A stretch of 35,563 nucleotides of DNA from a virus. Within the stretch, counting starts at the first letter, position 1, and every line of letters starts with the position of its first letter. The notes under the pieces are model-generated. The model was not told where the DNA came from. It worked only from the letters and a program-made list of their open reading frames with translations, and did not search any database. The stretch covers positions 1 through 35,563 of the IMG/VR virus record IMGVR_UViG_3300031707_000084; one strand, written 5' to 3'. Shown here in pieces: positions 4,853-35,563 of the stretch. Position numbers and translations under genes: made by a program.

Positions 4853-6220
4853 ATGTCTTTTCCGGCAAATCCGTCCGACCAGCAGACCTATACCAATCCG
4901 ATCGGTACGGTCTACGTTTATAATCTGTCAAGAAATGCGTGGAACATTCGCACGACAAACATAGGCGTAACAGGCATACAAGGATTGACAGGCCTTGCAT
5001 TAGGATCCACAGGTATTAGCGGCCAGACTGGGATTCAAGGCGGGACTGGAATTCTTGGACAGACTGGAATTCGAGGTATGACAGGGCTTGGGGGACTCGT
5101 CGGTGGCACGGGTATTCAAGGCGGGACAGGGATCATCGGCGGGACAGGCATCCAGGGCGTGACAGGGCTCACTGGACAGACGGGGATTCAAGGTGTGACT
5201 GGAATTGGCGGGTCAGGCACTGTTGGTGTGACGGGATCGTGGCCAGGAAGCATTACTGGTATCATAGGTGCTCCAACGATTGGCTACACAGGCCTGGCAG
5301 GATATACTGGATTTTTTGGAGCCGGATTCACTGGTGCTTATAAAGGCACGGTTGTTTATGATCCATCTCCTAGCACCTATGCAGATTTCCGTCCGTGGGG
5401 GACCTACAACTACATGTATTCGGACACAGGTGGTTATAACGGTACAACACTTTACAGGTGGTCTCTAGAGATACCAACTGGATCAACAATTTCCGACGCA
5501 ACATTATATCTCAAATGCATGGCGGCTGGTCCTTCAATGCCGACGACAATTTCTGTACGCCAACTAAAACATAATTGGGGTATTACTGATACAAATCCTG
5601 GAGGAATTACCAGCGAAAGTCCTGCAACACACGGACAGGCAACATGGCGGCGATCTTATGATTATAATGGAGCAGGTGGAGATGTGGCGTGGACGGGCGG
5701 CGGAAACTTTAATGTCACGGCAGATGCTTCTCCACTGACCAGTTCCGTCACAACATCGTTTGCGGCTGGTACGTGGTATTCGTGGCCTGTTACTCCTATG
5801 GTGCAAAACTGGTTTACAAACGGGCAACCAAATTACGGACTTTGCGTATGGAATGACCAGACGCATGCGAGTGGAGATAAACAAGTTTACTGGTATGGCG
5901 ATCACACCGCAGCCACGGCACCATATTTGGCTGTCAATTATTATCAGTATAATAATACTGATACAACACAAGTAATTCCTGTATACGTACAAATGACGCC
6001 GATCGCCCGCTTCATTGATTCAACAACCATGGCGTACAATACATCTCATATTACTGATGGCAGTAACTTGATTGACATTCGCGGTGGTGGCTGGTCTGAC
6101 TCGCACTTAATGCTTGGCGCTTACCATTTATGGATTGACACATCTGGTAAGCTACGTATCAAGTCGACCTATCCAACATCAACAAGTGACGGGACGGTCG
6201 TCGGAGCCCAGACAGCGTAA
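4853..6220 (+). CDS. Collagen-like fibre with DNRLRE-type beta domain (455 aa)
   Basis: Residues 1-36 (FPANPSDQQTYTNPIGTVY, ending RNAWNI) repeat the anchor module of the protein at 1274. A short collagen section follows (about residues 40-163, including GGTGIQGVTGLTGQTG). Residues about 165-365 resemble the DNRLRE/CBM96 family of beta-sandwich adhesion domains: LYRWSLEIPTGSTISDATLYLKC, a Trp-rich middle, then TPMVQNWFTNGQPNYGLCVWN. The C-terminus (YHLWIDTSGKLRIKSTYPTS, then DGTVVG) is a motif seen at the ends of many phage fibre proteins. Inferred role: carbohydrate-binding fibre of the virion. It sits nine bases after the 910-aa fibre with GGAA upstream. The family assignment of the beta domain is by eye. 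Confidence 0.8.
   Translation: MSFPANPSDQQTYTNPIGTVYVYNLSRNAWNIRTTNIGVTGIQGLTGLALGSTGISGQTGIQGGTGILGQTGIRGMTGLGGLVGGTGIQGGTGIIGGTGIQGVTGLTGQTGIQGVTGIGGSGTVGVTGSWPGSITGIIGAPTIGYTGLAGYTGFFGAGFTGAYKGTVVYDPSPSTYADFRPWGTYNYMYSDTGGYNGTTLYRWSLEIPTGSTISDATLYLKCMAAGPSMPTTISVRQLKHNWGITDTNPGGITSESPATHGQATWRRSYDYNGAGGDVAWTGGGNFNVTADASPLTSSVTTSFAAGTWYSWPVTPMVQNWFTNGQPNYGLCVWNDQTHASGDKQVYWYGDHTAATAPYLAVNYYQYNNTDTTQVIPVYVQMTPIARFIDSTTMAYNTSHITDGSNLIDIRGGGWSDSHLMLGAYHLWIDTSGKLRIKSTYPTSTSDGTVVGAQTA
4970..5340 (+). repeat. Collagen-coding repeat tract in the 455-aa fibre
   Basis: Gly-X-Y coding DNA of the same GGTGIQGVTG type as the neighbouring fibre, with several identical runs such as GGCGTGACAGGGCTC. The similarity between paralogous genes favours exchange between them. 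Confidence 0.85.
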
Positions 6221-7566: not shown

Positions 7567-9045
7567 ATGCCGTTTCAATTGAATCCACAAATTCCGATGT
7601 CGTACGACTACGGGCCAACTCCGCTCGAGCAAATGGGGCAGGTCTTGACTTTAGCGGACCTTGCCCAACAGCAACGGATAGGCCGCCAAAAGTTGGCGAC
7701 AGGAGCGTACGATTTGCAGAAACAGGCCGCACTCAAAAGATTTTTTGCTCCGCCGACGCAGGTTGCTCCTGCACCTACCGCCACTCCCGCGCCCGCATTT
7801 CCTGGTGTGCAAGGTGTTGCACCCGAGTTGGCTCCGCCAACAGCACAGACGCAGTTTGGAAACCCGATGATGCAGAAAATCTACCAACAGTCATTGGAAG
7901 GCACCGCAAAGGAAGCACCGTTGCCCGGGGCTGGATTATCTCCATACGCTCCTGCTGCCGTCCAGTCAACAATGTTGGCTGGACAGACACCTCCTGTGAC
8001 GCTGCCGCCCGAAGAGAAAAAGGTGGTGACGCCCGAGGAGGAATTTGATTTCAACAAATATTATGATAATGCTTTTAAGACGTATTCTCGAATGTTAAAC
8101 GACCCGATGCTGTCGGGGTATGGGTTGGATGCTCTTGACAAACTGTCTCAAATTGGTGAACGCCATCAGAGGGCACTATACTATGGAGAAAAGGCCAAAG
8201 CCAAGGAAAAAGAGCCAAAGACAAAATCCGTTATCGGAGAATATTTAAACATCAACCGTTATGATCCAGATGCCAACGATGCACAGGTGAGGTGGCAGAG
8301 CATGATCCCCGATGTGGCACGGATGACTGGGGAAACAATAGAGAAACTGTCGGCAATGACTCCCGCTATGTTGCGTACTGAGCAGTATATGGATAAATTG
8401 AAGCCTAAAGTAAAGGAAATAACCACCGAGCAGATAATGTCTCTCGGAAAGGCTTTCAATACCGATGTCGGAGCATATGATGTTGTCAACCAGCATGTCA
8501 ACAATATACAGACCATGTATGACAAAATTCTGGAAGAAAAAGCCAGACAAAAAATATCCCCAGATGAGAAAAATGCTGGACAGATATTAAAACCATATGA
8601 CAAGGCTATTTCGATCAGCTATTTGAGAGCCACCAACCCTGAATCGAGCCGCATGTTCAATACCGATCAAGATTTCCTGCAACAAATTTTGGCCACGAAG
8701 TTATCAGATATTCCAAAATTAATAATCGAAGTTTTAAAAGGCGGAAGTTTATCTCCCACAAGTCGTACATCATATTTGGAGGCCGCAAAGGCTTTGAAAA
8801 CATCGTGGGAAACAGCGACTCTGCTGCCAAATATCAAATCGGCGGTAAACACGGCACTGGAATTCGGGGTCGATCCTGACAAAATCATACCGTCGAAATA
8901 CGGGGACTGGGCCAGTATGGTTGCTCCTCCCGGAAACGAAAAAGGATTAAGAACAGCCATAAATCTTTACAACGATAGCAATGCATCGGATGAGGATAGA
9001 GCTAAGGCTATTGAGGTATTGACAAAACTAGGATTAATAAAATAA
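7567..9045 (+). CDS. Probable ejection/internal virion protein (P22 gp20 position)
   Basis: A 492-residue protein with an N-terminus like many ejection proteins (PTPLEQMGQVLTLADLAQQQ), a Pro/Ala-rich linker at about 58-150, and a charged, mostly helical remainder. No enzyme motif was seen. Its length is close to P22 gp20 and it lies second in the three-gene ejection cluster, with AAAGGAG before ATG. Function is inferred from position, helical composition and size rather than from a recognised domain. Confidence 0.7.
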   Translation: MPFQLNPQIPMSYDYGPTPLEQMGQVLTLADLAQQQRIGRQKLATGAYDLQKQAALKRFFAPPTQVAPAPTATPAPAFPGVQGVAPELAPPTAQTQFGNPMMQKIYQQSLEGTAKEAPLPGAGLSPYAPAAVQSTMLAGQTPPVTLPPEEKKVVTPEEEFDFNKYYDNAFKTYSRMLNDPMLSGYGLDALDKLSQIGERHQRALYYGEKAKAKEKEPKTKSVIGEYLNINRYDPDANDAQVRWQSMIPDVARMTGETIEKLSAMTPAMLRTEQYMDKLKPKVKEITTEQIMSLGKAFNTDVGAYDVVNQHVNNIQTMYDKILEEKARQKISPDEKNAGQILKPYDKAISISYLRATNPESSRMFNTDQDFLQQILATKLSDIPKLIIEVLKGGSLSPTSRTSYLEAAKALKTSWETATLLPNIKSAVNTALEFGVDPDKIIPSKYGDWASMVAPPGNEKGLRTAINLYNDSNASDEDRAKAIEVLTKLGLIK

Positions 9046-21691: not shown

Positions 21692-21722
21692 TACCTTTTC
21701 TCCCCTTTTTGATTGTTATGTT

Positions 21723-21751
21723 ATTATATAAAGTCTACAAGAAAAGATAAA
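21723..21751 (-). promoter_or_regulatory. Early leftward promoter candidate
   Basis: On the minus strand a perfect TATAAT (-10, 21728 to 21723) is 17 bases downstream of TTTATC (-35, 21751 to 21746). Transcription would start about 25 bases before the RHH regulator's ATG and read the whole early operon. Confidence 0.6.
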
Positions 21752-21966
21752 CTAAAAAAATAATTTTTTATTCCTATCTATTAATTAAAGTATTAATAGA
21801 TTACTAAGAACTTCTTTCTCTTTTACAGTAAAACTAAGGTTCGATCTCGCCGGTATTCCCGGCTTTCTAAAGCTTGTTCTAACTTACCTAAACCTACTAA
21901 GTTGCCTGTTGTAAAGCAAATTCACGTTTTTTGCCGAGCTTATTAACATATAATCAATCACTTACA

Positions 21967-21986
21967 TTACTTAACAAATTAAGTAA
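21967..21986. repeat. 8-bp inverted repeat with CAAA loop
   Basis: TTACTTAA, CAAA, TTAAGTAA form a perfect stem in the AT-rich half of the control region; a possible operator. Confidence 0.6.
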
Positions 21987-22027
21987 CGGTTTTAAAACGC
22001 AGTTTGTAATAACTCGTTAATAAAAAA

Positions 22028-22039
22028 GTTTACGTAAAC
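22028..22039. repeat. 12-bp palindrome GTTTACGTAAAC
   Basis: A perfect dyad. It is followed directly by CCAAAAT, a seven-base loop and ATTTTGG (22041-22061), so two dyads stand side by side. Confidence 0.65.
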
Positions 22040-22061
22040 GCCAAAATCTGATGAATTTTGG

Positions 22062-22077
22062 TTATCCTATAGGATAA
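22062..22077. promoter_or_regulatory. 16-bp palindrome TTATCCTATAGGATAA (operator candidate)
   Basis: A perfect 16-bp dyad. With flanking bases, GGTTATCCTATAG (22060-22072) is the exact reverse complement of CTATAGGATAACC at 22274-22286, so the motif occurs twice in opposite orientation about 200 bp apart. Confidence 0.6.
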
Positions 22078-22273
22078 GAAATCATTTAAGCCTCCATCGC
22101 ATAGATTTACAAAACAGATTAAAAGCGTGATAAGTTTAATTTATCATAGGGGAATTTTAGAACGGTGGCCAAAATCACGGTAAAAAACGTGAAAGATGTT
22201 TTGTTGTATCACAATATCACGAAAACCCGTCAAAAACAAACATATATATATAAGCCATAAATATACAGAGGTG

Positions 22274-22286
22274 CTATAGGATAACC
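22274..22286. promoter_or_regulatory. Second CTATAGGATAACC site
   Basis: A thirteen-base exact match, in inverted orientation, to the palindrome-containing site at 22060-22072. A TA-rich stretch follows (22290-22335). Confidence 0.55.
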
Positions 22287-22384
22287 CTAAATAAATACCC
22301 CTATATAATATATATATTTTTAACTTTTATATACTAAACGTGGAAAACCGTTTTGAAGCCATTGGAAATGTAAGGGTTAGGACC

Positions 22385-22430
22385 TTAGTACGTTTTAAGA
22401 ACGCTCAATCCCATTTCAAAAACGTACTAA
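22385..22430. repeat. 12-bp inverted repeat with 22-base loop
   Basis: TTAGTACGTTTT (22385-22396) and AAAACGTACTAA (22419-22430) are perfect reverse complements. This may be a hairpin or a two-half-site operator. Confidence 0.65.
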
Positions 22431-22500
22431 AAGCCAACCTACCAACGCTGTATGGGTCCGGAGAAAGCTGGTCTTTACGCTCTCCAGCACCAGTTCCTGG

Positions 22501-22519
22501 CCTCCTGGCAGCCAGGAGG
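22501..22519. repeat. Strong GC-rich hairpin
   Basis: CCTCCTGGC and GCCAGGAGG around a single A (effectively an 8-bp stem with a three-base loop). Flanking bases can add further pairs in RNA. No T-run follows. Confidence 0.7.
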
Positions 22520-22542
22520 CTGGCAGATCGAGGGGTCAGGGC

Positions 22543-22572
22543 ATGCTGAGTAGCTTCGGGGGTACTCAGCAT
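22543..22572. repeat. 10-bp perfect stem with 10-base loop
   Basis: ATGCTGAGTA (22543-22552) pairs with TACTCAGCAT (22563-22572); the loop contains CTTCGGGG. It lies 24 bp after the hairpin at 22501. Confidence 0.7.
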
Positions 22573-22585
22573 ACCCCGAAACGGA

Positions 22586-22601
22586 ATTTAAGCGCTTAAA
22601 T
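22586..22601. promoter_or_regulatory. 16-bp palindrome ATTTAAGCGCTTAAAT, site 1
   Basis: A perfect dyad within a 28-bp unit (22575-22602) repeated at 22659-22686 with one mismatch. Related core sites occur at 22908-22917 and 23005-23016, making a four-site family likely to bind a dimeric protein. Confidence 0.75.
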
Positions 22602-22613
22602 GAGGCTACACTT

Positions 22614-22804
22614 GCTGTAGACTTTCCTACAGCCACGTCCTGGACTATCCTGCAGCCACCCGAAATGGAATTTAAGCGCTTAAATGGCTGTGGACTATCC
22701 TACAGCCACTTGCTATCCAGTTTCTTTTTCAGACCCTGTCCTGGACTATCCTGCAGCCACTGGTCTTTTTCAGACCCTGTCCTGGACTATCCTGCAGCCA
22801 CTGG
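22614..22804. repeat. Iterated GGACTATCC(T)GCAGCCAC repeats including a 41-bp tandem pair
   Basis: Five related copies: 22618-22636 (diverged), 22637-22659, 22690-22709, 22738-22760 and 22779-22801. The last two belong to two identical 41-bp units (22723-22763 and 22764-22804). Some copies carry their own dyads: GCTGTAG/CTACAGC (22614-22633) and TGGCTGT/ACAGCCA (22685-22708). The arrangement is iteron-like. Confidence 0.75.
22670..22685. promoter_or_regulatory. 16-bp palindrome ATTTAAGCGCTTAAAT, site 2
   Basis: Identical 16 bases to site 1, 84 bp downstream (eight helical turns), with the same CCGAAA-type left flank. Confidence 0.75.
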
Positions 22805-22907
22805 TCTATGAGACCACCTGTGTTGATAACTTGTTAGTTAACTGTTAAACTATATTATCCAAGGACTTACGGGGCTAAATGGTATACATAATGTGCGTTA
22901 TACGCCC

Positions 22908-22917
22908 TTAAGCGCTT
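22908..22917. promoter_or_regulatory. TTAAGCGCTT core, site 3
   Basis: The core of the 16-bp palindrome recurs here inside CTTAAGCGCTTGAG, with one side diverged. It lies between two copies of CCAAGGACTT. Confidence 0.6.
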
Positions 22918-23004
22918 GAGTACCAAGGACTTGGCTAAGGATATCGGATTGCCACCATAGGCAACCAGGGGGGTTGGAACGGTGCCCCCAAGATATGGCG
23001 TCAT

Positions 23005-23016
23005 TTAAGCGCTTAA
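23005..23016. promoter_or_regulatory. TTAAGCGCTTAA core, site 4
   Basis: A perfect 12-bp dyad; the next flanking base pair is lost compared with sites 1 and 2. It is the copy closest to the late operon. Confidence 0.65.
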
Positions 23017-23226
23017 GTAGCATTGATAAGACCCCCTCTCTCCCATCCAAAGTTGCGGGCTGCACAACACCTCGACCCTCCCCCCTAGACCATGGACCAG
23101 GAGTCCCAACTGGACTCGGCAGGTGGGGGGGTCTCCCCCCTAGGGGACATGTCGGTTTTATGACTCATTTTCTTTTTTTTCAAATTCTAAAAAATTTTTT
23201 TGGGGGTGCCAATGTCTTTGGTTTTT

Positions 23227-23247
23227 GCCCTATTTTTAGGGCTTTAA
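23227..23247 (+). terminator. Hairpin GCCCTA/TAGGGC before the late operon (terminator or attenuator candidate)
   Basis: A perfect 6-bp stem with a TTTT loop (23227-23242) followed by TTTAA. It would stop or pause rightward transcripts coming from the control region about 70 bases before the first late gene. A modest stem, so strength is uncertain. Confidence 0.45.
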
Positions 23248-23313
23248 TACTTTGTTAATAATTTTTCTAGTGCTGTGCCTAACACACCGGGAAACCCCGA
23301 GGAGTAAAAATAG

Positions 23314-23700
23314 ATGGCATTTCCTCCGCAAAAACTTGTTGGCGACGGCAGCCCCCAATCGATCATGAAGCCCCGCAAGGGGGATTTACTTGCAAACAAT
23401 CTTCTAGACTATTATTCCGATTCCACTCGTCAACAGGATCTCATAGCGGTAATTGACAAACACGTACACTCCGCTGACGGTCGCGTTGCGATACAGGCCC
23501 TGGAGTTGCTTTGCAACAGGTTATGGGGTCGTCCTGTGCAGAGGGAGCTGGTGGCGGGCCGTGTTGACCATACGGTGCGAGGTCTGACCATAAAATTTGT
23601 TTCTCCCACGACAAGGGAAATTTCTGCCACGGCCACCATCACTTCTGATGCTGATGTGGCCGAAATCGACTCAACCGCAACATTAGCAGAGGGCACATAA
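23314..23700 (+). CDS. Probable terminase small subunit (128 aa)
   Basis: The first gene of the late block, with CGAGGAG upstream. Residues about 36-78 (QQDLIAVIDKHVHSADGRVA, then IQALELLCNRLWGRPVQ) form a helical unit of the R/K-x-A-x-x-x-L-x-x-R-x-(Y/W)-G-(K/R)-P type that I associate with phage packaging or DNA-binding small proteins. The C-terminus is Thr/Ala-rich and probably disordered. Position ahead of TerL supports a DNA-recognition role in packaging. The family is not certain, and no canonical HTH is obvious. Confidence 0.5.
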   Translation: MAFPPQKLVGDGSPQSIMKPRKGDLLANNLLDYYSDSTRQQDLIAVIDKHVHSADGRVAIQALELLCNRLWGRPVQRELVAGRVDHTVRGLTIKFVSPTTREISATATITSDADVAEIDSTATLAEGT

Positions 23701-23701
23701 T

Positions 23702-24280
23702 ATGGTGAAAATCAATCCATTGGGTGACAGGGTTGTTTTGATTCCTGCCAATCCACAAAAGGCATCTCCGGGTGGTATTATTATTCCCGAGACGTTGGCG
23801 GATTCCGAGCGGCCAAGGAGAGGCACGGTTTTTGCAATTGGTCCAGCGGTCGCTGGGCTGCAGCCTGGTGACGACGCGTTGTACGGTAAACATTCCGACG
23901 CCGTCGAGGTTTGTCTTGACGAGCGCAAATATCTCTTTATCAACGAGGAGGATGTGCTGGTTATTTTCTCTCCGCTCAGGACCCTGACGAATGTTCTAGT
24001 TGTCTCCCCTGAGGTGCGGGAGAAGTCGGCGGGTGGTCTGTGGTTGGTTGACATTTGGAAGAAGCTCCGTATGGAGTCCTTGACCGAGAGGGGTTATTGC
24101 ATAGGCACGGTGCTGGTATGCGGGCCGCAGGTCACGGGTGTCAAGGTTGGTGATCGTATTGCCTATGTTGAGACGCAGTACGAAGTCCAACCTGCTGAGC
24201 CGTTCGGTCAGCCTGGGTGGCCCGAGTACGTGCATTTCATCCGTTCTGACGAAATCCTATGTCTATACACGTCCATATAA
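23702..24280 (+). CDS. Tandem double GroES-like co-chaperonin (192 aa)
   Basis: Residues 1-90 are a full GroES/Cpn10-like domain: INPLGDRVVLIP, the mobile-loop element GGIIIP (24-29), RGTVFAIGP, PGDDALYG and EEDVLVIF. Residues about 96-192 repeat the same order in diverged form: NVLVVSPEV, GGLWL (111-115), GTVLVCGP (135-142), VGDRIAY (149-155) and SDEILCLY (182-189). Both halves keep the hydrophobic loop tripeptide that docks into GroEL. Known phage co-chaperonins (T4 gp31) have one such domain; plant Cpn20 has two. Inferred role: works with host GroEL to fold capsid or fibre proteins. It follows the preceding gene by one base and lies beside terL. Confidence 0.85.
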   Translation: MVKINPLGDRVVLIPANPQKASPGGIIIPETLADSERPRRGTVFAIGPAVAGLQPGDDALYGKHSDAVEVCLDERKYLFINEEDVLVIFSPLRTLTNVLVVSPEVREKSAGGLWLVDIWKKLRMESLTERGYCIGTVLVCGPQVTGVKVGDRIAYVETQYEVQPAEPFGQPGWPEYVHFIRSDEILCLYTSI

Positions 24281-24298: not shown

Positions 24299-24637
24299 AT
24301 GACTGAATCCGGAGTAAAGTATGAGCTGGAATTGGCGTCATTTTGTGCAAACATTGCTCTTGCCAAGTTAGAGGAATCGAAGGCTGCGGTCCGTACGCGT
24401 GAGTTGGAATACGGTATGGCGCAGTTCCAGCAGCAGGTGATGTTGATGCAGGCCCAGGAGTTTGACAAGCAAGAAGTTTTGCGGAAGAGCAACAACGAGG
24501 TTTATGACATATTGAAGAGGCGGGGTTTGTCTGATGACCTTTGTAAAAAAGCTACTGCGTTGGGTGATAAGGAGTTGTTGTCGGGTTATGGATTATCGAG
24601 GACGCCGCTTGTTGTGGAGGTGTCCAATGCCATATGA
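24299..24637 (+). CDS. Coiled-coil hypothetical protein (112 aa)
   Basis: Mostly one long charged helix (ALAKLEESKAAVRTRELEYG, then QFQQQVMLMQAQEFDKQEVL) and a shorter C-terminal part. No family recognised. It has an AAAGGAG site seven bases before ATG and sits in the late operon between the co-chaperonin and two small conserved-looking genes. The 3' end overlaps the next gene by 11 bases. It may be a packaging accessory protein, by position only. Confidence 0.65.
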   Translation: MTESGVKYELELASFCANIALAKLEESKAAVRTRELEYGMAQFQQQVMLMQAQEFDKQEVLRKSNNEVYDILKRRGLSDDLCKKATALGDKELLSGYGLSRTPLVVEVSNAI

Positions 24638-24773
24638 AATCAGATATGTCAAGGGGTCAAAAAGGCCGTGGAAGGTTGTTAAAAAGGACACAGGAAAAAC
24701 GGTTGGGTCGAGCTCGAGTGAGGCTATGGCGAAGGCCAGTATAAGGGCCAGGTACTGGGGGGAGAATAAATGA
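24627..24773 (+). CDS. Small conserved-type phage protein (48 aa)
   Basis: Reads MPYEIRYVKGSKRPWKVVKK, then DTGKTVGSSSSEAMAKASIR. This is the shape of a common small phage/bacterial protein in which two strands (YEIR, WKVV.KDTGK.VG) precede a helix rich in Ala and Arg. The frame is open further upstream to 24534, but that part has poor composition, and GGAGG stands six bases before the ATG at 24627. It overlaps the preceding gene by 11 bases and shares ATGA with the next. Function unknown. Confidence 0.7.
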   Translation: MPYEIRYVKGSKRPWKVVKKDTGKTVGSSSSEAMAKASIRARYWGENK

Positions 24774-24943
24774 ACATTGTTACAAAATTTGAGTTGCACC
24801 AGCCAGTTGTCATCAAGGAATTGCATCCGTTGATGGGTACTGTCGTCAAGATAGAGTTTAGCGGCGTGCTGCTTTACAATGTGCAATATTGGTGGAACGG
24901 TGAGCAGAAGTATGCGTGGTGCTTCGAGGATGACATACGATGA
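24770..24943 (+). CDS. Small hypothetical protein (57 aa)
   Basis: Reads MNIVTKFELHQPVVIKELHP, with a strand-rich middle (GTVVKIEFSGVLLYNVQYWW) and an ending WCFEDDIR. The (Y)xVxYWxNG...F.(E/D)D pattern resembles short phage proteins that accompany packaging genes. Its ATG overlaps the previous stop (ATGA at 24770) and its TGA overlaps the TerL start (ATGA at 24940), so it is translationally coupled on both sides. Too short for automatic calling but convincing. Confidence 0.7.
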   Translation: MNIVTKFELHQPVVIKELHPLMGTVVKIEFSGVLLYNVQYWWNGEQKYAWCFEDDIR

Positions 24944-26556
24944 CTATGGGATCTGGTCACTTGTCAACTGTCGAGAAGCCGTTGACCAAAAAGGCTGTCA
25001 ATGAGTCGTTGTCGTTTTTGACGGTGTCGGCTCAGACCGATGAACAAAAGCGTGCCGTGACAAAATTGATTGCCGATCGTAAGGCGGCCAGGAAGACGAC
25101 GCAGTTTAAAAAGCTTGCTCTTCCTTCCGAGGAAAATGTCGTCGTTGCTGAGCAGATGGAGCTGCCTGAAGCTTTTCAACCTCTCCTGACCATGAAATGT
25201 CGTTACAAGGTTTATCACGGCGGACGTGGATCCGCCAAGTCAATGTCGTATGCTATTGCCTTGCTTATACTTGCGTCGATGAAGAAGATAAACATTTTGT
25301 GTTGCAGAGAGATCCAGAATTCCATAGCAGATTCGGTTCATCGTCTTTTGTCAACGCTGATTGAGAAGTATCATTTGTCGGACACATTTGAGATTCAGAG
25401 GAATATCATTCGTTGTATTTCGACGGGCTCCGAGTTTCATTTTGAGGGGCTCTTCCGGAACACCGATAAAATAAAATCTTATTATGATGTTGACATTGCG
25501 TGGTTATGCGAGGCCCAGCCTGTGTCGGAAGACAGTCTCCAGATTTTGTTCCCCACGATTCGCAACGCAAACTCTGAAATCTGGATCGAATTCAATGACA
25601 AATACGCGGACGATCCTGTATACCGCAGGTTTGTCACCGACCCGCCGAGCAATGCTCTTGTTCGTAAAGTATCCTATCTGGATAATCCGTGGTTCCCGCC
25701 GGAGTTGCAGGCGGAGATGGATAACGATTTTAGGTATCGTCCCAAGGCTGCGGCGAATATCTGGCTTGGTGATTTGAAAGGGGCTGGCGGCCTAGTCTGG
25801 GAGTTTGATCCAAAGGTTCACATCAGGGAATTTTCCAAAGAGGATTTGAAATCGGCAAATGTTTTTATGGCAATCGATCCGCATCAGGTGCATTTTTCCG
25901 CAGCGGTCTGGGTTGCGTTGATACCGTCTCCCGATAAGTCAAGGATGTACAAGTGGATATTTGCCGAGTGGCCTCGAATAGCAACTCTGAATGGTAGTTT
26001 TGCGGATGTCCGCACATCTGTCAACTACGGCGGGACCTACTCCGACATGGCCAGGGAGTTTTATGCAACCGAGTCAGAATCAAGGTTTTGCGACCCAGGT
26101 AAATCCCTGAAAATTTACGGTCGTTTTATCGATTCCCGTTTCGCTGCGGGGACAGGGGCTGCCAACTGGTCATCAAAAACCGAGGGTATTGTGGCGGAGT
26201 TTGCTAAACGCGAAAACGGCGGTCTGGATTTTATCAGTCCTCCCTGCACGATAATCGATTCTCGGCGTGATGTGATAAAAAAGGATATGGAGTACAACAC
26301 GAAAATCGCCTTGTCGTCAATCAATCAGCCCAGTCTGTATGTGTCGGAGAGCTGCCAGAATGTGATACAGTCGTTTACCAGCCACCGCTACGAGGAGGAT
26401 TCCGAAAAAGAAAGCGATCGGTTTAAGGATTTTTCGGATGCAATCAGGATCTGCTATTCGGGGTTTGCAGACCATAAATACAAGGACCCGAACAAAAAGA
26501 TTTTGAATGATTATTATGATTTTGGTACTTCCGGAAGAGATTGGATGGCGCTGTAA
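24940..26556 (+). CDS. terL: Terminase large subunit
   Basis: A 538-residue packaging motor. The ATPase domain has Walker A GGRGSAKS (94-101), the coupling-type segment CREIQNSIADSV (122-133), and Walker B VDIAWLCE (184-191) with Glu191 as catalytic carboxylate. The nuclease domain begins with VFMAIDPHQ (D313) and includes RMYKWIFAEWPR and, near the C-terminus, the acidic ERFKDFSDAIRICY-like end. It cuts concatemers and pumps DNA through the portal. The first 60 residues are an extra charged N-terminal extension. ATGA overlap with the upstream gene. Without termini the packaging strategy (headful or other) is unknown. Confidence 0.92.
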   Translation: MTMGSGHLSTVEKPLTKKAVNESLSFLTVSAQTDEQKRAVTKLIADRKAARKTTQFKKLALPSEENVVVAEQMELPEAFQPLLTMKCRYKVYHGGRGSAKSMSYAIALLILASMKKINILCCREIQNSIADSVHRLLSTLIEKYHLSDTFEIQRNIIRCISTGSEFHFEGLFRNTDKIKSYYDVDIAWLCEAQPVSEDSLQILFPTIRNANSEIWIEFNDKYADDPVYRRFVTDPPSNALVRKVSYLDNPWFPPELQAEMDNDFRYRPKAAANIWLGDLKGAGGLVWEFDPKVHIREFSKEDLKSANVFMAIDPHQVHFSAAVWVALIPSPDKSRMYKWIFAEWPRIATLNGSFADVRTSVNYGGTYSDMAREFYATESESRFCDPGKSLKIYGRFIDSRFAAGTGAANWSSKTEGIVAEFAKRENGGLDFISPPCTIIDSRRDVIKKDMEYNTKIALSSINQPSLYVSESCQNVIQSFTSHRYEEDSEKESDRFKDFSDAIRICYSGFADHKYKDPNKKILNDYYDFGTSGRDWMAL

Positions 26557-26751: not shown

Positions 26752-26816
26752 TGTTTAATAACTTGTTAATATTTCAGTTAGCAGTTAGTTAGCAGCATCT
26801 AATGAAGGAGTTTTTA

Positions 26817-28964
26817 ATGGAATTCCAGTTGGACGAAAATATTTCCGACCTCGGGACTCCGCCTGTCCCTCCTGTTGTCACAGATGAATTAAATCTTGAA
26901 CCTGAGGCAGAACCAGAAGAGACCGACGCCGAAATATTGGTTGAGGCTCGGGAGCGTTTCAAAATATGTTCGGAAATGTCCGAAGAAATTCGGGCCAACG
27001 CTTTGTCCGATCTGATGTTTTTGTCTGGCGACGACGAAAACAAAAATCAGTGGAGACAAGAGGCGCTTGCCGAGCGTGCGCTTTATGGTCGTCCCGCAAT
27101 TACCGTCAATAAATTGCCTACCACCGTTAACCAGGTCGCAAACGACATACGGCAAAACAATCCATCTATTAAAGTGAGGCCCATTGATTCGGTTACTGAT
27201 CCTGCCACGGCGGAGGTCATCAGTGGGTTGATACGCACAATCGATTATAAACCCGCGGTTGATAACGCCACATATTATGCGGTTGCTTGTGGAGAAGGAT
27301 TTTTTCGCATTTCTACACGGTGGATTGAGGGAACTTTTGACCAGGAGATAATTGTTGAAAGAATAGAAAATCCGTTAAGCGTTTATTTTCCAATCAACAT
27401 CATAAAAATGGCGGATTACAGTGACGCCCCGTATTGTTTTGTCCGATTTGTGATATCCAAAGATGAATTCAAGGCCAAGTATCCCAATCAGCCTGACATG
27501 TCTCACTGGGACGGCGGGACTGGCGACAGGAACTGGGTAGAGGAAAATGCTGTTTGGATCGCAGAATATTTCCGCGTCGAAGAAACACCAGTAACTCTCT
27601 ACAAGCTATCCAATGGTGAAGTGGTAGAGGAAGTGCCTGATTCTATTTTGTATCCAGACATAACGGTAGTAGACGATAGAGAATCTACCAAACGTAAAGT
27701 CATGCGTTATCTTATTACACAGTTTTCCATTCTTGAAAGAAACGAAATTCCGTCGCGATATATTCCGGTGGTTCCGATTTTGGGGCAGGAGATGAATGTT
27801 GACAATAAGAAAATTTATAATTCCCTTATTCGTTTTGCGAAGGATCCACAGCGAAAATACAATCATTTGAAATCGGCCGAGATTGAGATTATCGCCTTGG
27901 CCCCGATATCGCCGTTTATGTGTGCCGAGGGTGTGACTGACGGACATGAGGACGAGTGGGCGGTTTTAAACAAAAAACATCTAGCAAAAATAACATACAA
28001 GCCCGATATCCGACTCCCAAGTGCGGGAATGCCGCAACGCATAGATCCCCCCCAAGTGCCTGGCGCGGTTGTAAATGCTATACGGGAAGCAAGCGACGAC
28101 ATAAAAGCTTGTACCGGAGTGTTTGATGCAGGTCTTGGAGCAAAAGGCAACGAAACGAGCGGGCGGGCCATAATTGCTCGCACCCGTCAATCTGACACGG
28201 TAACCTATCATTTCGTGGAATCCGTGACCGCCGCCGTAAAGTTAATGGGTAAAATTTTTATCGACATGATACCTGTACTGTACGATGTTCCCCGTGCCAT
28301 CAGAATCCTCGGCGAAGATATGCAAGACGAAATAGTAATGGTTAATCAGTTGCATAAGACGTTCAACAATGACAATCGTCTGTATGATTTGAAAACGGGA
28401 AGATACGATCTGATAGTTAGTGTGGGTCCGTCTTATGAGTCTCGCAGAATAGAGGCCGCGCAGAATTTGATTAATCTCATACAATCCGTTCCGCAAATTG
28501 GTCTGGTGTCAAGTGACATTCTCGTTCGTAATCTGGATTTCCCTGGAGCGCAGGAACTTTCAGATAGGTTGAGAAAAACAATACCTCCAAATCTGTTGGA
28601 GAAAGAATCTTTCGGAAAAAATATCACGGAACCGCAGTTGAGGGAAATAATTGCCGACCTGGAAAAACAGATGGCAATAGTTGCCACTCTGCAGCAGCAG
28701 CGGGCACAGATGGGTCAGATGATTCAGGCGTTACAGAAACAGTTGGCCGATAAACTGCAGGCCGAGCAGATAAAGGCCGACACCGCGGTTATACGCGCCT
28801 CGTCCGAAGTCAAGAAATCCCAACTGGCTCTTGAGCAGGAAAAAATAAAACAGGGATTTGCTCAATCCAGACACGCGGTTGATACGGCAATTGATTTTGC
28901 AAACAGAAATATTACAGGGCAATACCAGCCCGAGGGACCGGCACCAACGCCGAGACAGTTTTAA
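26817..28964 (+). CDS. Portal protein (P22 gp1-like)
   Basis: A 715-residue portal, close to P22's 725. The start is set at the ATG (26817) seven bases after AAGGAG; an earlier in-frame ATG (26802) precedes that site and is unlikely. After an acidic N-terminus come RFKICSEMSEEIRANALSDL with MFLSGDDENKNQWR, and NKLPTTVNQVANDIRQNNPS, both typical of the P22 portal family. Later helices (NETSGRAIIARTRQSD, AVKLMGKIFIDMIPVLYD) fit the stem/crown. The C-terminal 110 residues form a long Gln-rich coiled coil (the barrel in P22). It forms the dodecameric DNA gate at one capsid vertex. Confidence 0.88.
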   Translation: MEFQLDENISDLGTPPVPPVVTDELNLEPEAEPEETDAEILVEARERFKICSEMSEEIRANALSDLMFLSGDDENKNQWRQEALAERALYGRPAITVNKLPTTVNQVANDIRQNNPSIKVRPIDSVTDPATAEVISGLIRTIDYKPAVDNATYYAVACGEGFFRISTRWIEGTFDQEIIVERIENPLSVYFPINIIKMADYSDAPYCFVRFVISKDEFKAKYPNQPDMSHWDGGTGDRNWVEENAVWIAEYFRVEETPVTLYKLSNGEVVEEVPDSILYPDITVVDDRESTKRKVMRYLITQFSILERNEIPSRYIPVVPILGQEMNVDNKKIYNSLIRFAKDPQRKYNHLKSAEIEIIALAPISPFMCAEGVTDGHEDEWAVLNKKHLAKITYKPDIRLPSAGMPQRIDPPQVPGAVVNAIREASDDIKACTGVFDAGLGAKGNETSGRAIIARTRQSDTVTYHFVESVTAAVKLMGKIFIDMIPVLYDVPRAIRILGEDMQDEIVMVNQLHKTFNNDNRLYDLKTGRYDLIVSVGPSYESRRIEAAQNLINLIQSVPQIGLVSSDILVRNLDFPGAQELSDRLRKTIPPNLLEKESFGKNITEPQLREIIADLEKQMAIVATLQQQRAQMGQMIQALQKQLADKLQAEQIKADTAVIRASSEVKKSQLALEQEKIKQGFAQSRHAVDTAIDFANRNITGQYQPEGPAPTPRQF

Positions 28965-28976
28965 GAAAGGCTTTAT

Positions 28977-29837
28977 ATGTCAACCGACAACACAGTCGAG
29001 ATTGAGAAAGTGGTAAGTGTTAATGAACCTGTTGAAGAAGAGACTGAAGAGAAAAAAGAAGTAGAGGAAATAGAGGAAGTTGATAAAGAGGAAAAAGACG
29101 AAAAAGACGAGACCGCTGAAGAAGAGGAAATACCTAAGGAGAGGCCTCGCGGAGACCAGGATGCAGCCTGGAAAAGACTGCAGCGGCGTAAGGACGACTA
29201 TAAGCAGAGAGCTGAGCGGGCAGAGGCAATGATACAACAGCAGATGTATCAGCAACTCCAGCCGCAGCAACAACCAGTGCAGGAATCCGACGAACCTGCC
29301 AGAGATCAGTACGCGGACGATGCTGGTTATTTGAAGGCTTGGATGGAATGGAGCAAGCTGGGAATTACGAAACAGGTCAGGCAGGAATTTTATCAGCAAC
29401 AGCAGGAGACACAACAAACACAGGCAAAAGAGGCCTGGGATAAAAAACTTGCGGTGACGAGAGAAAAATATCCTGATTATGATGAAGTATTGGAAGAAGC
29501 TTTAGATATCAAAATCCCAGAAAATCTATACCCTGCGCTGACAACAGCGTTGCAGGAGTCTGATCTGGGTGGAGATATATGGTATTATTTGTCAAGTAAC
29601 CCCGATGAAGCTAGGCGGGTGATGCAGATGTCCCCAACCAGAGTTGCCTTGGAAATAGGTCGGTTGGAGTCGATTCTCGAAAGTGAACCGAAACAGACCA
29701 AGAAGGTTTTGGTTTCAAAAGCTCCGTCTCCTGTCATGGCTCCGAAAGCGTCATCCGGGAAATCATCCCGTGATCCTAACAAAATGACGCCAGAAGAATA
29801 TTATGCGTGGAGGATGGAGGACAAACGAAAAAAATAA
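28977..29837 (+). CDS. Scaffolding protein
   Basis: A 286-residue protein with an extremely acidic N-terminus (about residues 5-50), a basic/Gln-rich coiled segment (WKRLQRRKDDYKQRAERAEA), and a C-terminal part with YPDYDEVLEEAL, WYYLSSNPDEARRVMQMSP and ALEIGRLESIL. These C-terminal motifs recur in scaffolds of P22-type podoviruses. It ends in a basic helix (EEYYAWRMEDKRKK) suitable for coat binding. Between portal and coat, as expected. It directs procapsid assembly and leaves before or during packaging. Confidence 0.85.
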   Translation: MSTDNTVEIEKVVSVNEPVEEETEEKKEVEEIEEVDKEEKDEKDETAEEEEIPKERPRGDQDAAWKRLQRRKDDYKQRAERAEAMIQQQMYQQLQPQQQPVQESDEPARDQYADDAGYLKAWMEWSKLGITKQVRQEFYQQQQETQQTQAKEAWDKKLAVTREKYPDYDEVLEEALDIKIPENLYPALTTALQESDLGGDIWYYLSSNPDEARRVMQMSPTRVALEIGRLESILESEPKQTKKVLVSKAPSPVMAPKASSGKSSRDPNKMTPEEYYAWRMEDKRKK

Positions 29838-29861: not shown

Positions 29862-31094
29862 ATGCCAACAGCAAGCAATACTAATTTAACTTCTGACATC
29901 ATCCTGAAGGAAGCTCTGACCATTATGAAAAATGCTCAGGGTATGATTCCTTCGGTTGATCGTCAGTACGACGCCCAGTTTGCCGCAGGTGGAGCATCCA
30001 TCGCGGGTCCAATCGGGCCAAGTCTTCGTATCCGTTTTCCTGCCCGTTATGTCGCCACCGAAGGCGAAACGATGGTCGAACAGGATTCCGTTGATACGGC
30101 AGTAACCTTGACAGTTTCGACTGCCATGCACGTCGGAATGAATTTTGGATCCAATGAGCTTACTCAAAGTATCCAGAATTTTTCTAAAAACTACATCGCG
30201 CCCGCAGTGTCTACGCTGATCGATGCTGTGGACAGAAAACTCGCGAGTACGTATGTCAACGCATATAACAGCGTCGGAACTCCTGGAGTTTCTCCTGCAA
30301 CGACTGCAGTGTGTAACCAGGCAGGTTCGATGTTGACAAAGTATTGTGCGTTGAACGACCAGAACAGAATGGCCGTTGTCAATCCCGATGCACGGGCAAC
30401 ACTCATTGGTGCTTTCTCCACTCTGTACAATGCTCCCGCGGCAATCACCTCCCAGTTTGAGACTGGCGTGCTTGCAAAGTCGTGGGGTTTTGAATGGCGT
30501 GAATCGAACTGCATCAACAGCCACACGAATGGTGCCGTAGATGCAACATCTTCGTCTCCATGTGTGCTGGTTAACGGTCCCGACCAGAGTGGTTCGACAA
30601 TTAAAATTGACAAGCTGGCTGCTCTTGCTGTTTTAAAAGCAGGAGATGTTTTTCAGCTCGCTGGAGTCTATGGAGCCAACCCAGTGTCCGGGCAGAATCT
30701 CGGGCATCTGCAGCATTTTTCCGTCACTGCCGATACGACAGCCAGCGGTGGAGGAACCATTGCGGCCCTGCCAATCGCTCCGTCGATTGTAACCAGTGGA
30801 GCGTACAAGACGGTAACCAACAGTCCTGCCAACAACGCGTCCGTTGTTTTCCTGGGCGTGGGCGGTGGTGTGTATCCGCAGAACCTGTGCTTCTCGCGCA
30901 GCGCCATCACACTTGCAACAGCAGACATTGAGCTTCCTGAAGTTAAGTTTCGCTCTCGCAACAACATGGATGGAATTTCTCTGCGTATCGTCAAGGACTA
31001 CACGATCGCAACCAATAAAAACCCGTGCAGAATCGATATTCTGTTCGGTGTTAAAATGGTTCGGCCGGAGTGGTGCACCAGGATGTATGGTTAA
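29862..31094 (+). CDS. Major capsid (coat) protein, P22 gp5-like
   Basis: A 410-residue coat protein close to P22 gp5 (430). Family features: start SDIILKEALTIMKNAQGMIP, then SLRIRFPARYVATEGETMVE, then TLTVSTAMHVGMNFGSNELT. The C-terminus is GISLRIVKDYTIATNKNPCR, then DILFGVKMVRPEWCTRM. The HK97-type fold is expected. It follows the scaffold gene and is followed by a terminator hairpin, allowing strong separate expression. AAAGGAAA lies upstream of ATG. Codon use looks smoother than in the fibre genes, as for a highly expressed protein. Confidence 0.9.
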   Translation: MPTASNTNLTSDIILKEALTIMKNAQGMIPSVDRQYDAQFAAGGASIAGPIGPSLRIRFPARYVATEGETMVEQDSVDTAVTLTVSTAMHVGMNFGSNELTQSIQNFSKNYIAPAVSTLIDAVDRKLASTYVNAYNSVGTPGVSPATTAVCNQAGSMLTKYCALNDQNRMAVVNPDARATLIGAFSTLYNAPAAITSQFETGVLAKSWGFEWRESNCINSHTNGAVDATSSSPCVLVNGPDQSGSTIKIDKLAALAVLKAGDVFQLAGVYGANPVSGQNLGHLQHFSVTADTTASGGGTIAALPIAPSIVTSGAYKTVTNSPANNASVVFLGVGGGVYPQNLCFSRSAITLATADIELPEVKFRSRNNMDGISLRIVKDYTIATNKNPCRIDILFGVKMVRPEWCTRMYG

Positions 31095-33379: not shown

Positions 33380-33667
33380 ATGGCTTTTTCTCCCCCTCCG
33401 ATCAGGACGGTATTGACTGATGATAATGGAATATTGACTTATCCCTGGCAACGATATGTGAATGATGAGTATGCCGCAATCAGGGATTCAACTGGTGGAG
33501 GCGGGCAGGGAGCAACTGGACTTCAGGGAATTCAGGGCTCGGCAGGAAAGCCTGGAGCAAAAGGTGATGATGGACAACCCGGAGCAAAAGGAGAACAGGG
33601 AGTGACAGGGCTGGCGGGTCTCGGCATTGAAGCGGACAATTTAGCGTATAGTTGGATGTTGACATGA
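33380..33667 (+). CDS. Short collagen-containing neck/fibre-adaptor protein (95 aa)
   Basis: Residues 1-37 (MAFSPPPIRTVLTDDNGILT, then YPWQRYVNDEYAAI) resemble a widespread short N-terminal phage neck/fibre module. Residues about 42-80 are classical collagen triplets (GKPGAKGDDGQPGAKGEQG), with more Pro, Lys and Asp than the Gly-X-Thr fibres downstream. A short tail ends LAYSWMLT. It occupies the P22 gp26 (tail-needle) position. It may be a trimeric adaptor linking the fibres to the neck. Strong GGAGG site; its stop overlaps the next start (ATGA). Confidence 0.75.
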   Translation: MAFSPPPIRTVLTDDNGILTYPWQRYVNDEYAAIRDSTGGGGQGATGLQGIQGSAGKPGAKGDDGQPGAKGEQGVTGLAGLGIEADNLAYSWMLT

Positions 33668-35563
33668 TAATTTTAACAACACAGAATCTTACGGCATATT
33701 GCGACGCCACATCTACGTCCGCGCCGTCCTGGCAGGCATCGTATGCCGATCATATACCCGAGGTGTCGTTTACCGAAGGAAACAGTTGCGGAGTGTTGAC
33801 TGACACTACGGCAGTGACAATAGTCGATGTTCCCATTTATGGAACTAAGCGGGCGGTAAAAACAATATCGTTCTGCAATTTAGATTCTGTCACCCAGACC
33901 TTTACGGTTTTGCTGGATGACGGCATAACTCAGACAATACTGTTCGTTAGGACCATCCCCCCGAATGAAAACCTGATTATCGATACGGAAATTTATCCAC
34001 AAATAAATGTTCAAGGACCGACAGGTATTCAGGGTGTGACAGGGCTCGTTGGTGAGACGGGTATTCAGGGCGTGACAGGAATATCGCTTGGGGAAACTGG
34101 CATACAGGGCTTGACAGGCCTCGTCGGAGAAACAGGTATTGCTGGTGTGACGGGGGTTGGACAGACTGGAATTCAAGGTGAGACAGGAATCTGTGGACAG
34201 ACAGGAATTGAGGGACAAACAGGAATTCGTGGTCCGACAGGAATTCAAGGTGAGACAGGAGTTCAGGGTGGGACAGGGATTGAAGGACAGACGGGGATTC
34301 AGGGTTTGACTGGACTCCAGAATTTTATTGACCACGCGGATTATCCGGGTTTTACGCAGCCAGCAATTTTACTTTGGAATGAGGACGACGAAGCGCTGTT
34401 TGTTGCGGGGTTAACTGGGATAAACAAATGGGTAATGATTTCTGCGGGGGCAAAGTCAGGGGCTCAGGGCGTGACGGGAATTTTTGGTGGTGGGACTGGG
34501 CTGCAGGGAGTGACTGGAGTCGGACAGACGGGAATTCAGGGTGTGACCGGGTTTGGAATTCAGGGAGATACTGGTATTCAGGGTGTGACTGGAGTCGGAC
34601 AAACAGGAATTCAGGGAGATACAGGAATTCAAGGATTTACAGGTTTGGCTCTTGGATCGACGGGTATTCAAGGCGTAACAGGTTTTTGCGGGGAGACAGG
34701 TATTCAGGGTGTGACAGGATTCGGAATTCAAGGTGATACAGGCATTCAAGGTGTGACAGGGATTCGGGGTCTGACAGGAATTCAGGGTGTGACGGGATTC
34801 GGAATCCAAGGTGGTACAGGCATTCGGGGAGTGACGGGAGTCGGACAAACGGGAATTCAGGGTATGACAGGTCTTGGAGGTATGACCTCTACGGGAACTA
34901 CACCACATTTGACAAAATTCTCCAATACTTATTCATTACAAAACTCCATAGTTCAAGATGATGAAACATGTGCATATGTTTATAAATCAACATATGATAA
35001 CACTAACTATTGTACATTATCAACCGATAATATTTCTATCGAACAATTAAATAATGGTCTATATTTTGGCGGCGTGGAAGTAACGGAAAATTTATGGGAT
35101 TCCACCTGGAATACCGCCACCAACAGTTTAACATTTAATACTTTATTAACAGGTGTTAATTGTATAGATATTGCGACTAGTAGCAATAGTCGGTACAGAA
35201 CGGCAAGCGATACCAGCAGCGGTTGTAATAGAATTTCCAATGATTACGGAAAAACTTGGACAAACGGACCTTATGCATCTTATGCCATAGCCATGTCAAG
35301 CGACGGCAGAATACAAACATCTATAGCTGGAAATGCAATTAGTTCTTATGATTACGGGGTTACTTGGGTAGTAGGTGCCGGCGGGTTTGATCAGGGATAT
35401 AGAATTGCAATGTCTTCTGACGGGCGACACCAGACAGCTGTCGGAAGAGGTAATTTCGGGTCAGCTGTGATGTATGTGTCGCATACATATGGGAAAACAT
35501 GGACAGCCAAAGACACAAGTTCCTGGAATTGTATTGCAATGTCCAGCGACGGAAAAATTCAAA
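33664..35563 (+). CDS. N-terminal part of collagen-like / Asp-box propeller tail fibre (gene split by contig ends)
   Basis: This frame runs off the window end and continues at position 1 (918 residues in all). Residues 1-118 are a beta-sandwich of the common phage fibre-base type (MIILTTQNLTAY, AVKTISFCNLDSVTQTFTVL, IPPNENLIIDTEI). Collagen triplets follow (119-217 and 266-408), interrupted at 217-264 by the module also found twice in the 910-aa fibre. A linker leads to the Asp-box region starting at about residue 525 (SNDYGKTWT, SYDYGVTWV). The start overlaps the preceding stop (ATGA) with only a weak site of its own, so translation is coupled. Bases 35437-35563 duplicate 1-127. Confidence 0.88.
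   Translation, partial: MIILTTQNLTAYCDATSTSAPSWQASYADHIPEVSFTEGNSCGVLTDTTAVTIVDVPIYGTKRAVKTISFCNLDSVTQTFTVLLDDGITQTILFVRTIPPNENLIIDTEIYPQINVQGPTGIQGVTGLVGETGIQGVTGISLGETGIQGLTGLVGETGIAGVTGVGQTGIQGETGICGQTGIEGQTGIRGPTGIQGETGVQGGTGIEGQTGIQGLTGLQNFIDHADYPGFTQPAILLWNEDDEALFVAGLTGINKWVMISAGAKSGAQGVTGIFGGGTGLQGVTGVGQTGIQGVTGFGIQGDTGIQGVTGVGQTGIQGDTGIQGFTGLALGSTGIQGVTGFCGETGIQGVTGFGIQGDTGIQGVTGIRGLTGIQGVTGFGIQGGTGIRGVTGVGQTGIQGMTGLGGMTSTGTTPHLTKFSNTYSLQNSIVQDDETCAYVYKSTYDNTNYCTLSTDNISIEQLNNGLYFGGVEVTENLWDSTWNTATNSLTFNTLLTGVNCIDIATSSNSRYRTASDTSSGCNRISNDYGKTWTNGPYASYAIAMSSDGRIQTSIAGNAISSYDYGVTWVVGAGGFDQGYRIAMSSDGRHQTAVGRGNFGSAVMYVSHTYGKTWTAKDTSSWNCIAMSSDGKIQ
34018..34885 (+). repeat. Collagen-coding repeat tract of the split fibre gene
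   Basis: Gly-X-Y coding units of the GIQGVTG/GIQGxTG type, with GGTATTCAGGGTGTGACAGG recurring almost unchanged. An interruption at 34310-34458 holds the third copy of the LxNFI...W...WVMISAG module. Confidence 0.88.
34310..34458 (+). repeat. Fibre interruption module, copy 3
   Basis: Encodes LQNFIDHADYPGFTQPAILL, then WNEDDEALFVAGLTGINKWV and MISAG. It is the most diverged of the three copies but keeps the same order of conserved positions. Confidence 0.7.
35437..35563. repeat. 127-bp terminal direct repeat (circular overlap)
   Basis: Identical, base for base, to positions 1-127, inside one coding sequence whose frame is kept across the join. Best explained as assembly overlap of a circular or circularly permuted genome. 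Confidence 0.95.

Follow-up and report, generated by a model that had tools for sequence, protein, structure and literature searches.

The gene at positions 23702-24280 of an IMG/VR virus record encodes a protein which, judged by profile searches and structure prediction, consists of two head-to-tail GroES/Cpn10 domains in one chain. By analogy with known co-chaperonins, we consider it about 70% probable that the two covalently joined domains assemble in a ring and cap the GroEL of the host in place of host GroES, thereby providing a wider cage for head-protein folding. The preliminary description of this DNA had already seen GroES-like features in both halves of the 192-residue protein, and profile matches and structure predictions agree with it.

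Gene and genomic setting

The whole record (35,563 bases) is here called the window. The co-chaperonin gene is a single intact open reading frame (ORF) from ATG to TAA, and it lies among the following genes:

23314..23700, + strand, ORF of 128 aa, its stop one base ahead of the co-chaperonin ATG
23702..24280, + strand, tandem GroES-like co-chaperonin gene, 192 aa (ORF, Pfam Cpn10, PHROG 3188)
24299..24637, + strand, ORF of 112 aa in the same operon-like run
24627..24773, + strand, small ORF, start overlapping the preceding gene, ATGA overlap with the next gene
24770..24943, + strand, small ORF, ATGA overlap with the terL start
24940..26556, + strand, terL, large terminase subunit (PF04466, 3e-35)
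26802..28964, + strand, P22-like portal protein (PF16510, 2.4e-151)
28977..29837, + strand, head scaffolding protein (PHROG 8865, 9.1e-40)
29862..31094, + strand, major head protein, 410 aa, the presumed client (PHROG 283, 1.6e-64)

The one-base gap upstream and the ATGA overlaps of the last small genes before terL place the co-chaperonin gene in an operon-like run that leads into the genes for the terminase, portal, scaffold and major head protein. Neither the 128-aa nor the 112-aa ORF matched any family in Pfam and PHROG profile searches. By eye, the former faintly resembles an ORF of 125 aa that precedes terL in a related contig (L115), and it is possibly a small terminase-like protein. No Cpn60/GroEL gene was found in the record, which is weak evidence since the record may be a fragment.

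A good start codon for a second gene is lacking at the domain junction, where the nearest in-frame GTG codons are at 23954 and 24014, and the ORF thus reads as one polypeptide. Internal initiation at GTG 23954, which would release a free C domain, is unlikely, because the AGGAGG sequence is only 2 bases upstream and therefore too close. Codon-position composition is alike in both halves of the gene. So far one copy of this tandem gene has been seen, and single-protein searches of viral contigs and genome contigs returned no close relatives of the full protein. A near-identical relative of the window (L002) begins inside terL and does not reach the gene.

Two other features of the window were recorded. 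Between divergent modules lies a mostly non-coding stretch of approximately 1.6 kb (21692-23313), in which the palindrome TTTAAGCGCTTAA occurs three times (22575-23024; 0.05 matches expected) together with GTCCTGGACTATCCTGCAGCCAC repeats; this is possibly a replication origin or a regulator site. Long collagen-like repeat proteins of the GTGIQGVTGL type are encoded at 2111-4843, 4853-6220 and 33380-35563, and they are probably tail fibres.

Two GroES domains in one chain

The domains and their diagnostic segments are positioned as follows:

23702..23974, + strand, N-terminal GroES domain, residues 1-91 (Pfam Cpn10, AlphaFold2, Foldseek)
23771..23785, + strand, mobile-loop motif GGIII, residues 24-28, aligned to GGIVL of Escherichia coli GroES
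23840..23872, + strand, roofless segment GPAVAGLQPGD (GPAVAG, residues 47-52)
23975..24277, + strand, C-terminal divergent GroES domain, residues 92-192 (PHROG 3188, hhalign, AlphaFold2, Foldseek)
24032..24046, + strand, second mobile-loop motif GGLWL, residues 111-115
24122..24154, + strand, second roofless segment GPQVTGVKVGD (GPQVTG, residues 141-146), by anchor-to-anchor measurement

The N half is unmistakably a GroES/Cpn10 domain. Residues 3-88 match Pfam Cpn10 (PF00166) at E 2.6e-16 and 59.9 bits (cut-off 21.1), the full protein matches PHROG 3188 'co-chaperonin GroES' at 1.1e-17, and residues 3-58 match PHROG 931 'head morphogenesis' at 2e-5. AlphaFold2, run on the full-length protein with an alignment of 29 phage Cpn10s in which no homologue covered the C half, gave an N-half barrel in which pLDDT is at or above roughly 90. 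In Foldseek this model found GroES (5opx_O) at an rmsd of 1.4 Å as well as T4 gp31 (1g31). Several of the 'phage' records that match the N half were rejected as phage sequences, as their gene content is that of bacterial groES-groEL loci on faecal scaffolds.

The C half is considerably more divergent. Taken alone it matches PHROG 3188 (E 1.6e-4, positions 9-92 of 96), and Pfam Cpn10 gives no match. Pfam reports instead a GroES-like ADH_N motif at 0.011; an alcohol-dehydrogenase-type reading was rejected, as that match is limited to 22 residues of the shared GTV..GP..VGD pattern and alcohol dehydrogenase folds rank below Cpn10 in Foldseek. Single-sequence hhalign against a profile of single-domain Cpn10s, from which the window protein was left out, gave a probability of 95% (E 3.6e-8, score 43.8), the best of 100 shuffles reaching 19.4. 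With HMMs built from other phage Cpn10s both halves outscore 1000 of 1000 shuffles, at 15-20 bits for the C half vs 78 bits for the N half. The C half also scores higher against single-domain Cpn10s of P22-portal-type phages than against canonical ones.

In the full-length model, which had no homologues for it, the C half reaches a pLDDT of only about 37-58. Given a Cpn10 alignment, its core strands rise to 85-95, a result conditional on that alignment, and the top Foldseek matches of the resulting model are all Cpn10 (TM about 0.6). Taken together, these comparisons and models indicate that the C half is a divergent but real GroES domain. Structure prediction and profile searching of each half, both proposed in the preliminary description, have thus come out in favour of the two-domain reading, the C barrel only under the alignment just mentioned and its profile match though Pfam Cpn10 is silent.

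Mobile loops and roof segments

The two motifs named in the preliminary description, GGIII and GGLWL, are indeed at the expected places, and a hydrophobic tripeptide follows GG in the mobile loop of both halves; loop motifs of this type bind GroEL. Between fixed anchors the mobile-loop segment measures 28 residues in the N half (+2) and 34 in the C half (+8), vs 26 in E. coli GroES. The roof segment, measured in the same way, is 8 residues in each half vs 17 in E. coli GroES. A roof is likewise missing from several of the single-domain Cpn10s that related phages encode. In T4 gp31 the loops are longer (22 vs 16), the roof loops are absent and the chamber is larger and more open (PMC6318259). 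As gp31 is an accepted member, the roof hairpin is a variable feature of the GroES/Cpn10 family and not a requirement.

Co-chaperonin genes near terL in related phages

Viral contigs were searched with alignments of terL and portal and then scanned for Cpn10. A same-strand Cpn10 gene is present in 19 of the 64 terL loci having more than 2.5 kb upstream; in 18 it precedes terL by no more than about 3 kb, and in one (L075) it lies downstream. The loci were chosen by likeness to the terL and portal of the window, and 18/64 therefore describes this phage type rather than phages generally. In further portal loci the Cpn10 gene is immediately upstream of portal. All Cpn10 genes at these terL and portal loci are single-domain, none tandem. 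The nearest terL/portal relatives (L034-L036, L114, L115) have no Cpn10 in the available DNA, so the gene is patchy and not obligatory in this phage type. Environmental phages of the P22-portal type accordingly often carry a GroES gene near the terminase, though with a patchy distribution. The suggested role in morphogenesis is plausible, and the synteny in 18 of the 64 loci strengthens it.

Within the L034-L191 set, a Cpn10 gene just upstream of terL or portal is common (L182, L102, L089, L161, L146), and the mobile loop is often altered (e.g., RRLSDILYVPN) in place of the GG-tripeptide. Another virus, L031, has two different single-domain Cpn10 genes adjoining each other on the + strand (7705-7998 and 7983-8306), a pair that possibly represents a step before fusion.

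Other two-domain candidates and the origin of the tandem

The preliminary description held that known phage co-chaperonins are single-domain. This has to be corrected in view of PHROG 13932 'co-chaperonin GroES' (200 positions, 77 records). Its members are approximately 190 aa long and come in part from cultured phages: Cellulophaga phage phi38:1 (gp089, 194 aa, adjoining terL), Calle and the Flavobacterium elemo phages; its relatives include 68 Flavobacterium-phage records. Matches to PHROG 3188 fall in the second half of the phi38:1 protein and in the first half of the elemo protein, so that the PHROG 13932 proteins are probably two-domain. A paper on flavophages lists 'chaperonin cpn10' as a core gene of the Pervagoviridae, and two domains are unmentioned in the portion used here (PMC8776804). 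Within the limited literature set searched, no paper describing a tandem GroES in phages was found; databases already contain a similar, probably two-domain layout for a few marine phages, which seems to have drawn little attention.

PHROG 13932 was reached via contig IMGVR_UViG_3300020044_010116 (L018), which contains an ORF of approximately 287 aa (3551-4414, + strand) with a clear central GroES domain (HMM 3.6e-16). Weakly GroES-like segments flank it, the first and the third being near shuffle level, and residues 5-191 match PHROG 13932. A separate single-domain Cpn10 gene (4374-4658) follows directly. From its sequence, the long protein is possibly a triple GroES.

Membership of the window protein in PHROG 13932 was ruled out: there was no match at E up to 1, and hhalign end to end gave 5%. 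In the tree, where the long branch of the window's C half calls for caution, PHROG 13932 second halves cluster together with support, separately from either half of the window protein. Thus the window tandem likely arose independently of PHROG 13932, and on sequence it looks like the better-conserved tandem. Its N and C halves are not paired in the tree either, the C half sitting on a long end branch (2.56), and they resemble each other over 21 residues only (BLASTP 8e-5; Smith-Waterman score 51 vs a shuffle maximum of 48). These results reject a recent internal duplication. An old one is conceivable, since the roof deletion is common to both halves.

Somewhat short of even odds is the wider proposal that GroES domains have been fused at least twice independently in phages, in the terL slot: two here, two in PHROG 13932 and perhaps three in L018. 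The lids would then not be simple symmetric seven-fold rings; they would make up a class of GroEL caps peculiar to phages, asymmetric and roofless, which alter the cage for head proteins and whose origin is unrelated to chloroplast Cpn20.

Proposed function and alternatives

In the proposed mechanism, the ring would consist of three or four tandem subunits, i.e., six or eight domains, or else of three tandem subunits and one host GroES, giving seven domains. It would cap GroEL during late infection, replacing host GroES; host GroEL would serve, as the record has none. Cpn20-type proteins substitute for GroES in E. coli and assemble as trimers or tetramers, or join single-domain partners in mixed rings, and six- and eight-domain concatemers function with GroEL (PMC3542282, PMC5780408). 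Loss of the roof together with longer loops, as in gp31, could make the cage wider and more open for phage head proteins. The client would most likely be the major head protein; gp31 is essential for the folding of T4 gp23 (PMC3012670). At about 44 kDa, however, the head protein of the window ought to fit into a GroEL cage of ordinary size, so a larger one is not an absolute requirement.

It is also conceivable, though we regard it as unlikely, that only the N domain acts as GroES and that the C domain, GroES-derived and without GroEL binding, is an adaptor which, for example, binds the head protein or breaks the seven-fold symmetry of the lid. The far greater divergence of the C half in HMM score (20 vs 78 bits) and end branch, its loop of eight extra residues and a proline-rich insert ahead of its last strands all fit such a role, and Cpn20 excluded domains with other roles have been discussed (PMC3542282). 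However, GGLWL is exactly at the position of GGIVL in GroES and the strand pattern is complete.

Very improbable in our view is that the protein mainly targets a host ring other than GroEL, for instance ClpP, or is a decoy that removes GroEL from host use rather than a productive lid. The idea draws on the PDB entry that supplied the best full-length solved relatives, whose title names a ClpP complex, but the gene is in a late packaging and head operon, where Cpn10 recurs in related phages. That assembly or sequencing error joined two separate Cpn10 genes, as the single metagenomic record, the lack of coverage by L002 and the adjoining pair in L031 might suggest, is the least credible explanation given one frame with no stop, no suitable second start at the junction, like codon-position composition and comparable proteins of approximately 190 aa in cultured phages.

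If the tandem protein does cap GroEL as proposed, a phage double-domain, gp31-like roofless lid would be a compact natural system for asking how an even number of GroES domains can close a GroEL ring of seven-fold symmetry. The same system could test whether the geometry of the lid is matched to the folding of capsid proteins.

Comparison with known systems

The single-domain Cpn10s of P22-portal-type phages (L182, L102, L089, L161) occupy the same slot upstream of terL or portal, and several are equally roofless. Unlike the window protein, they have one domain and a mobile-loop segment approximately 4 residues shorter than that of GroES. The PHROG 13932 proteins share with the window gene their length, a GroES-like character in two halves and a position directly upstream of terL and portal. 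Their more GroES-like half is the second, whereas in the window protein it is the first, and their first half bears only a weak likeness to GroES (70% in hhalign, over 29 columns).

Double-domain co-chaperonins have been regarded as peculiar to plastids and placed only in plants, algae and an apicomplexan derivative (PMC3542282). Among PDB entries, the full-length protein is best matched by Cpn20 and Cpn23 of Chlamydomonas (7ekq), which have two domains; this bears out the likeness to Cpn20 in architecture that the preliminary description pointed out. Chloroplast Cpn20/Cpn21 also has two head-to-tail GroES domains with a mobile loop in each. Cpn20 is, however, a plastid protein of the plant, alga and apicomplexan lineages, while the window protein is encoded in a phage record near terL; and apicomplexan cpn20 is described as roofed in both domains (PMC3542282), whereas the window protein is roofless in both. 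T4 gp31 resembles the window protein in being roofless and having a longer mobile loop, and it is a phage co-chaperonin for head-protein folding, but it is a heptamer of single domains, whereas the window protein has two domains in each chain.
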